From the IMG/VR virus record IMGVR_UViG_3300025732_000289, positions 1 to 22,529 of that record: DNA of 22,529 nucleotides. One strand, written 5' to 3'. The stretch is from a virus. The position numbers and the translations under genes are program-made. Below the pieces are notes generated by a model. It had not been told where the DNA came from and ran no database searches. It saw nothing but the letters and a program-made list of their open reading frames with translations. Position 1 is the stretch's first letter. The number at the start of each line of letters is the position of its first letter. Positions 4,065-22,519 of this stretch are shown one piece after another.

Positions 4065-4463
4065 TTAAAGTATAAATTCCCATGTTTGAGGTTTAAATCC
4101 TAATTCCCTTGCTCTACGTTCCCATCCTTTTCGTTGTGAAGAGAATGTAACTCTAGACTTACCGCCTTGTTTTGCTATTGCTTGAATTTCTTGCCATGCT
4201 TGTTGAAAGAGTGTATTGTCGTTAATGGTTGACCATGAAGCCCATACATGAAGTGTGTCACCTATAGGCTGAAGTACTACAAAACCTACTACTTTGTTAT
4301 CTATCATACCTACAAATAACATAGACCTGTTTTCATAACAGTCGCAATAGACATCTTCTACTATCCATTGTGTATGACCACGTTGTCTTACTAACTCAAG
4401 ACCATGTTTGACATAATCCCAATGTGAACGTAACTGGTCTTTAGGTATGTAATGTAAAATCAC
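4065..4463 (-). CDS. GNAT-like N-acetyltransferase, small
   Basis: A 132-residue protein with a GTG start that overlaps the TGA stop of the upstream C1q-like gene (GTGA), so it probably depends on coupled translation. The sequence has a GNAT-like order: an N-terminal helix with HWDYVKHGLELV, a central strand pair (MLFVGMI then KVVGFVVLQ), a helix (QQAWQEIQAIAKQ) and a final strand-helix-strand with RRARELGFKPQTWEF, which resembles the conserved end of GNAT proteins. The usual R/Q-xx-G-x-G/A acetyl-CoA loop is not clearly present, so catalysis is uncertain. It may have a structural or chaperone role in tail assembly. The substrate is unknown. Confidence 0.65.
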   Translation of the reverse strand: MILHYIPKDQLRSHWDYVKHGLELVRQRGHTQWIVEDVYCDCYENRSMLFVGMIDNKVVGFVVLQPIGDTLHVWASWSTINDNTLFQQAWQEIQAIAKQGGKSRVTFSSQRKGWERRARELGFKPQTWEFIL

Positions 4464-5257
4464 GCTACTATAATATATCCGTATGTTTTATCTGCTGTAT
4501 TGTTTGCAAAATGTTTTAGTGTTGCACTACCGCTACTTCTAGCACTTACATATACATTAGTAGATGCTGAAGTTGATACATAACTCATTGTAGTAATAAC
4601 GCTTGGTGTAACTGGTCTTGTTGGACTTGTACCTGCTGCATAATGTTGTATAGACACACCAGTATCAGATACTTTCCACATAAGTTCAACATAATCACCT
4701 GCTACTAATTCTAAATAAAAGTTTAATGCACCAATAATATGACTTGGGTCACCAGCAGACCTTCTTGGTGCTAAACCAAACCTACTGTTTGATGCTGCAA
4801 TATCTGTGCCATTTTTTCTAAACCAAACTTCTGCGTCTTGAGAGTCGTTGGTTGTATTCTTAAACTGTATAGAAAACTCTAAATTATAAAGACCACTATT
4901 TCTTACATTAAGTTTAGAACTGTTTGACAAATAAACACCATTAGAAAAGTCAGTAGTGTTAAATGTAATTGCATAAGCTGCTGTTGTTGATGCAGCAGTC
5001 TGGTCAGTTGAGTCTTGAAACGCACCATAAGGAACAGTATCACTACCAGCAGCAGTACTAATAGGTGTTAGTAGTATTATACTATTATAACCTATTCTTT
5101 CATCTGATATCGTGGTAGTTGTAGCATTGCCTGTAGCTAAAGTAATTTCACCAGTATTATTGCTTTTACCTTCTACAAGGTTATTTACAATTTCTGCGAC
5201 ACTTCTAGCATCACCACCTGTCCAAGGTAGTTTACGGTACATATCACTACGTGCCAT
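4460..5257 (-). CDS. Tail protein with C1q/TNF-like jelly-roll domain
   Basis: A 265-residue protein starting at an ATG 8 bases after AAGGT. Residues 75-229 read as a C1q/TNF-like beta jelly roll, with AYAITFNTTDFSNGVYL, the inner strands SGLYNLEFSIQF, DAEVWFRKNGTDIA and GDYVELMW. This type of module is frequent in fibres and appendages of aquatic phages. The residues outside it (about 37-74 and 231-265) look like the two halves of another small beta domain that ends SATLKHFANNTADKTYGYI. The protein is probably an exposed tail or head appendage involved in host contact. Its position between the nozzle protein and later virion genes fits. Confidence 0.8.
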   Translation of the reverse strand: MARSDMYRKLPWTGGDARSVAEIVNNLVEGKSNNTGEITLATGNATTTTISDERIGYNSIILLTPISTAAGSDTVPYGAFQDSTDQTAASTTAAYAITFNTTDFSNGVYLSNSSKLNVRNSGLYNLEFSIQFKNTTNDSQDAEVWFRKNGTDIAASNSRFGLAPRRSAGDPSHIIGALNFYLELVAGDYVELMWKVSDTGVSIQHYAAGTSPTRPVTPSVITTMSYVSTSASTNVYVSARSSGSATLKHFANNTADKTYGYIIVA

Positions 5258-22292: not shown

Positions 22293-22401
22293 GTGGTTTC
22301 CTTAATTTAATAAATCTGTGGTCATATCTACAATCGTTACACAAAGTATACTCGGTGAAGTCAAATGGTTCACCACATTGTTCGCAAATAGATAGTTTCA
22401 T
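22225..22401 (-). CDS. Small zinc-ribbon-like protein
   Basis: A 58-residue reading frame with two Cys pairs, CEQC and CNDC, separated by 13 residues (SICEQCGEPF and YTLCNDCRYDH), as in a small zinc-ribbon or treble-clef domain. The C-terminal half is polar and basic (HEISTEDQSRKDEKN). I chose the ATG at 22401 because a TTG at 22422 lies in the terminator stem. There is no good ribosome site before 22401, and the U-run of the terminator abuts the start. The gene overlaps the next one by 68 bases. It is first in the operon if real and might act as a small regulatory protein. Confidence 0.5.
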   Translation of the reverse strand: MKLSICEQCGEPFDFTEYTLCNDCRYDHRFIKLRKPHEISTEDQSRKDEKNRQSDEGI

Positions 22402-22445
22402 AAAAAGAAAAAGCCCAACCAAGGAGAGAGTATGGTCAGGCTTTT
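22402..22445 (-). terminator. Intrinsic terminator in the leader of the minus-strand operon
   Basis: On the minus strand AAAAGCC and ACCA pair with TGGT and GGCTTTT across an internal TG/TG mismatch, closing an 11-base loop. TTTTTCTTTTT straddles the stem end and continues to 22402. It lies about 40-80 bases downstream of the promoter and immediately before the first gene. In the plus direction the run of U is much shorter, so the orientation is minus. Confidence 0.75.
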
Positions 22446-22464
22446 GTGGGATTACGTTATTAAC

Positions 22465-22479
22465 GGACAGGAGTTGTCC
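22465..22479. promoter_or_regulatory. 5-bp inverted repeat in the leader (GGACA-GGAGT-TGTCC)
   Basis: GGACA and TGTCC form a short inverted repeat just downstream of the inferred transcription start (about 22483). It could be an operator half-site pair or a small hairpin in the leader RNA. No protein can be assigned. Confidence 0.45.
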
Positions 22480-22489
22480 AACAAGTAGT

Positions 22490-22519
22490 ATTATAGCATA
22501 CTTTGCTATATCTGTTCAA
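22490..22519 (-). promoter_or_regulatory. Sigma70-type promoter with extended -10
   Basis: On the minus strand TATAAT (22490-22495) is preceded by TGC, which gives the extended -10 TGCTATAAT. A TTGAAC (22514-22519) lies 18 bases upstream as a -35 close to TTGACA. The start site should be near 22483. It would drive all the genes of the window. It is the only strong promoter match I found. Confidence 0.75.
22492..22510. promoter_or_regulatory. 7-bp inverted repeat across the promoter spacer and -10
   Basis: TATAGCA and TGCTATA are separated by 5 bases (TACTT). One arm contains the TGC of the extended -10 and part of the hexamer; the other lies in the spacer. A bound repressor would block RNA polymerase. 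This is a candidate operator; the binding protein is unknown. Confidence 0.5.

Follow-up and report, generated by a model that had tools for sequence, protein, structure and literature searches.

How does a phage reach its structural genes when a terminator stands between their promoter and the first start codon? The question is raised by the window analysed here, a virus record of 22,529 bases that is classified as a linear fragment and has the structural genes on its minus strand. A first-pass annotation had read the promoter and hairpin ahead of these genes as possible lambda-type late antitermination, with attenuation named in its title and a hairpin belonging to a preceding transcript as an alternative. 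We consider it very probable that this module is a late promoter with a proximal terminator, the functional equivalent of lambda pR'/tR', in a lambda-like aquatic podovirus.

Late promoter and proximal terminator

The late promoter occupies 22519-22490 of the minus strand and consists of the -35 element TTGAAC (22519-22514), an 18-nt spacer and the extended -10 element TG-C-TATAAT (22498-22490, with TATAAT at 22495-22490); the first-pass annotation had placed a strong extended -10 promoter here, correctly to within a few bases. The full TTGACA (6/6) is found in 89/163 relatives and an exact TATAAT in 147/163. Between 20000 and 22529 this is the sole minus-strand site having 10/12 matches together with the TG. 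Sigma-70 matches alone are not rarer than chance in the AT-rich window (6 found, 9.1 expected), and because the hexamers by themselves stay at chance level, the evidence for the promoter is the composite of promoter and terminator, together with its conservation. On the window's minus strand a search for a promoter followed by a terminator returned one strong site, the late promoter, and one weak site. Judged by its elements, the late promoter would be a near-consensus sigma-70 promoter independent of an activator.

The likely 5' end of the leader RNA, as predicted from the position of the promoter, is 22482-22483, which gives a leader of about 80 nt. It ends in a tR'-like intrinsic terminator (22445-22402, minus strand) whose arms AAAAGCCTGACCA and TGGTTGGGCTTTT form a perfect stem of 13 pairs around an 11-nt loop, UACUCUCUCCU, followed by the U-tract TTCTTTTT. 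The U-tract ends at 22402 and the ATG of the first late gene starts at 22401, which bears out the earlier description of a leader of about 80 bases with a hairpin directly before the ATG. Folding of the minus-strand hairpin, a check that the first-pass annotation had proposed, gave -16.4 kcal/mol (z about -4.6), and 0/200 shuffles were equally good. A simple terminator scanner missed this hairpin, as it accepts loops of 8 nt at most.

A Q-like gene ends just before the promoter

The few bases of the window that lie beyond the -35 element hold the stop codon of a Q-like gene (22527-22525, minus strand), the body of which is beyond the contig end. A near-identical contig, L002, continues the window (match from L002:4660, 11 mismatches in 9357 bases); its Q-like gene (4335-4664) encodes 109 aa and ends just before the -35 element. 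The search for a Q-like protein proposed in the first-pass annotation thus found a small gene of this type directly upstream, in L002 and in its relatives (350 loci). Further upstream in L002 are a MarR/HTH-like gene, a 106-aa gene, a YbcO-like HNH gene, NinB, a DnaB-like helicase and an O-like replication gene. The early gene order (O-like, helicase, NinB, YbcO, Q) is lambda-like, as in the lambdoid early rightward operon, and is comparable with the ybcN-ninE-ybcO-rusA-quuD order of the DLP12 prophage.

Profile searches of 33 members of the Q-like family gave matches to PF06530 (Phage_antitermQ) for 8 (best E 3.7e-4, matches being counted up to E 1), to sigma-70 region 4 for 13 (best E 9.4e-4) and to PHROG 248, 'transcriptional activator', for 8 (best E 3.8e-4). 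Pfam scores were below the curated cut-offs wherever cut-offs were shown: the window's closest homologue scored 19.0 bits with PF06530, for which the gathering cut-off is 26, and membership of PF06530 is not claimed because the Q-like protein scores below the cut-off. Homologues are annotated as 'phage antitermination protein Q' in MW202481 and as 'antitermination-like' in Methylophilales phage Venkman. Alignment of the Q-like profile with QuuD by hhalign was weak (E 0.052), and comparison of the family's sequence profile with the PDB gave chance matches and no Q structure.

The AlphaFold model of the Q-like protein (pLDDT 80.3) has an N-terminal helix with an invariant Trp14 and a C-terminal helical part; the loop LGYPSKS..GGEST is strongly conserved and poorly predicted. 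In phage 21 Q, a helix carries W26, loops form a ring and helices H3-H6 resemble sigma region 4 in fold (PMC6606751). The Q-like model shares with this protein (PF06530; PDB 6jnx, 6p18) the N-terminal helix with an invariant Trp, a conserved loop and sigma region-4-like helices. It differs in that its score is below the PF06530 threshold and that a Foldseek search with the model listed weak matches to sigma region-4 domains, all with E >1, and not 21Q. The modelled likeness to phage 21 Q in general plan is suggestive and not proof of membership. Sequence and annotation together point to the Q-like gene being an antiterminator, probably one of a divergent Q-like family that escapes current profiles or is under-called by them.

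The sigma region 4-like C-terminus and the PHROG 248 matches would also suit a late sigma-like factor or an activator of the RinA/ArpU kind, in which case the terminator would be incidental. We find this very improbable, for near-consensus sigma-70 promoters (TTGACA 89/163, TATAAT 147/163) should need no such factor, and the terminator is present in nearly all regions.

Conservation of the module in relatives

The Q-like gene was located by tblastn over the fetched loci, in 350 loci with 183 distinct downstream regions; counts of homologues are not independent, since there is redundancy among the loci and almost all of them are from a single collection. Promoter and terminator are kept in 174/183 distinct regions, adjoining the Q-like gene in 163 and lying past inserted sequence in 11, where the module sits 120-830 nt downstream of the Q-like gene; few regions were without the module by scan. 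In most distinct regions the distance from the Q-like stop to the start of the -35 element is -1 to +10 nt. The composite site follows the Q-like gene in all 15 relatives that were scanned on both strands (317 kb), and equally strong composites (energy -9 or better) occur about three times elsewhere. When the leaders were grouped into 25 clusters (<80% identity), the terminator was present in 25/25, built from many different stem sequences with each cluster having its own, and lay 3' of the promoter in all of them, with 58-91 nt between the -10 element and the U-tract.

These positions bear on the alternative already raised in the first-pass annotation, namely that the hairpin does no more than end the early (O to Q) transcript and that an ordinary constitutive late promoter leaks through it. 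The hairpin lies about 80-125 nt past the Q-like stop codon and would indeed stop the early transcript, so that this reading does not exclude ours. As the whole explanation we judge it very unlikely: a hairpin serving only to end the early transcript is expected before the promoter, whereas it is found after the promoter in 25/25 clusters. Moreover, promoter, leader and terminator stay together as one unit downstream of sequence inserted after the Q-like gene, and for this reason the reading is insufficient alone.

In most displaced modules the insert between the Q-like gene and the late leader is a DNA methyltransferase-like gene, judged by eye from its translated start. It lies exactly between the two in L086, L118, L134, L140, L148, L152, L263, L284, L385 and L404, and this insertion has been repeated, apparently in several lineages. 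In L108 the leader is broken after its 5' hairpin by inserted sequence that brings a new reading frame, and the usual terminator is lost there; L294 and L319 carry two tandem intrinsic terminators after the late promoter in place of one.

EBPR podovirus 1 and a relative (L292, L371) were missed by the scan, their -10 being below the threshold, and the module was recognized by eye: TTGACA-17-CAGAAT, a 5' hairpin and AGCCAGCA-GAGA-TGCTGGCT-TTTTTT, with the small terminase gene next in L292. No such leader was found after the Q-like gene of Venkman. In that phage (L290, MT375522, 12928-13700) a different gene follows the homologous Q-like gene and the structural genes are encoded on the other strand, so that the late promoter must be located elsewhere. 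Venkman provides a weak link to a Methylophilales host. A prophage search for relatives in genome contigs found none.

Leader RNA and candidate recognition elements

The promoter spacer varies among phages with nearly identical Q-like proteins and shows no clear binding element; CATTT..TGG is a repeated pattern in some other clades. Two candidates near the window's -10 were rejected because relatives do not retain them: a binding element formed by the direct repeat TTGTTGAACA / TTGTTGGACA that surrounds the -10, and an operator formed by an inverted repeat across it. A -10-like candidate for a sigma-dependent pause element in the early transcribed region, an AxxxT hexamer at one fixed offset, occurs in 11/25 clusters (95% of shuffles gave 5 or fewer); the clusters share ancestry, and the hexamer is absent from the window's own cluster.

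Among 34 distinct close relatives the spacer is variable, whereas there is hardly any change in TATAAT, in the linker AACGTAAT or in the terminator, and across the leader clusters the first ~26 bases after the -10 align almost gap-free. They include a 5' hairpin of the leader RNA, which we call H1 (UGGACA-ACUCC-UGUCCG; 22480-22464, minus strand), at about +3 to +20 in most of the 25 clusters. Its fixed position is accompanied by covariation: across the four core pairs, 85.7% of cells in an alignment of 21 sequences are paired, and slid pairings reach no more than 59.5%, clusters with the hairpin shifted by one base being scored as mispaired, and changes on both sides number 6 against 2.5 in shuffles, of which 7/500 reached as high a count. 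Support for H1 is moderate, because clusters of the L042/L385 type have only a weak form of the hairpin. Conserved and constant in its spacing from the promoter, H1 is an undescribed leader hairpin absent from Rfam: no Rfam 15 family matched the leader at the gathering score.

In most clusters a linker with an NGTAA core comes after H1, at a spacing that hardly varies. In the window this is TTAATAACGTAATCCCA (22463-22447, minus strand), invariant or almost invariant among the 34 near relatives; NGTAA is seen again in diverged clusters. The 25 leaders contain 32 copies of CTCC where 13.6 are expected, an excess that is suggestive only, since the clusters share ancestry.

A leader with two hairpins might suggest attenuation in cis, in which a ligand, a tRNA or translation of a leader peptide chooses between the terminator and an antiterminator fold. 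In all 25 clusters, pairing of the 5' arm of the terminator with upstream sequence gains only 0 to -2 kcal/mol, far from the -8 to -19 kcal/mol of the terminator itself. No conserved reading frame for a leader peptide was seen in the leaders, and this adds to the lack of an Rfam match. We reject cis attenuation, as no competing antiterminator fold exists, and hold it to be extremely improbable; the word attenuation, used in the title of the first-pass annotation, is dropped for the same reason.

As conserved parts of the leader, H1 and the NGTAA linker would most likely act in pausing, in Q loading or in stabilisation of the leader RNA. A bolder and rather doubtful proposal is that the leader RNA is itself functional, either because H1 and NGTAA load the Q-like family through the transcribed region, replacing the spacer element, or because the terminated leader, with its repeated single-stranded CUCC, is a trans-acting small RNA. 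A duplex search within these phages for targets of such a small RNA yielded nothing convincing or conserved. The best duplex requires an opened terminator arm; an apparent -35 kcal duplex with the start of a 90-aa gene in L002 was an artefact of ignoring the terminator stem and is much weaker in other relatives.

Late operon and internal hairpins

The first late gene (22401-22225, minus strand) encodes a 58-aa putative zinc-ribbon protein, with Pfam zinc-finger matches below threshold only. Its ATG abuts the U-tract (window 22399-22409), and in many relatives it lacks a Shine-Dalgarno sequence. The head of the late operon (22292-13160, minus strand) includes a DUF6496 protein, the terminase large subunit (19193-17925), the portal (17925-15892), a scaffold-like gene (15494-14511) and a capsid-like gene (14492-13539), all on the minus strand; the last two were assigned solely by position and size against annotated MW202481. 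Two minus-strand stretches among the late genes (21280-19507 and 13167-11352) hold non-structural genes, which include an HNH endonuclease, an acetyltransferase-like gene and, by eye only, glycosyltransferase-like, TPR-like and methyltransferase-like genes.

A second intrinsic terminator lies inside the operon, before the scaffold-like gene (15543-15521, minus strand), conserved with changed stems in L006, L010, L013 and L015. After the capsid-like gene there is a strong hairpin with a weak U-tract (13519-13488, minus strand), conserved with changed stems in L006, L010, L014, L015 and L410, which may be a partial terminator or a 3'-end hairpin. Possibly both are partial terminators that tune capsid expression. 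Transcription from the late promoter would have to pass the terminator at 15543-15521, which fits a processive antiterminator. A second promoter before the scaffold-like gene was considered and rejected, as the TTGACA in L002 is without a good -10 and was unseen in the relatives shown.

Proposed mechanism and comparison with known systems

The lambda-type antitermination reading of the first-pass annotation is well supported by the Q-like gene ending just before the -35 in L002 and by the module being kept ahead of the structural genes in hundreds of relatives; the switch, that is, promoter firing, termination, Q loading and processivity, we infer from this arrangement. Host RNA polymerase would fire constantly from the strong, activator-free late promoter and would be halted about 80 nt later at the hairpin, releasing a short leader RNA. 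The Q-like protein, as the last gene product of the early rightward operon, would meanwhile accumulate and join the polymerase near the late promoter; the modified polymerase would then ignore the proximal terminator and the hairpins inside the operon, and the head and tail genes would be transcribed.

The module shares with the lambdoid Q/pR'/tR' systems (lambda, 21, 82) a Q-type gene directly upstream, a strong promoter, a short leader, an intrinsic terminator, late genes downstream and the lambda-like early gene order. It differs from them in a Q-like sequence (109 aa) that is unrelated or barely related to lambdoid Q, in the ~80-nt leader with its constant 5' hairpin H1, and in the ATG of the first gene abutting the U-tract. 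The spacer binding element of lambda and 21, which in phage 21 takes the form of direct repeats between -35 and -10, is not evident here.

A promoter with a nearby intrinsic terminator is also found with AlpA of Pseudomonas aeruginosa, a small protein that bypasses an intrinsic terminator starting 54 nt past the promoter (PMC7969949). AlpA differs in having a predicted winged-helix motif and no sequence likeness to Q, and it controls cell lysis genes (PMC7969949). As outlined in a review (PMC7873438), StxS is a small RNA made from the pR'-tR' leader of an Stx phage (Sy et al. 2020). The leader described here would likewise be a late leader RNA cut short by termination and would share that origin, though no target was found for it; StxS is a precedent for a late leader with a second role (PMC7873438).

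The type of control proposed is already well known, and the phage group that carries it is large and little studied. To our knowledge, lambda-style late antitermination has been studied almost only in enterobacterial phages; the module indicates it as a standing feature of a large, uncultured, mainly aquatic phage group. The hundreds of natural variants of promoter, H1 and terminator mean that the recognition target of the Q-like family can be sought. If H1 matters for loading, Q action would be separable from the binding element that lambda and 21 carry in the spacer.
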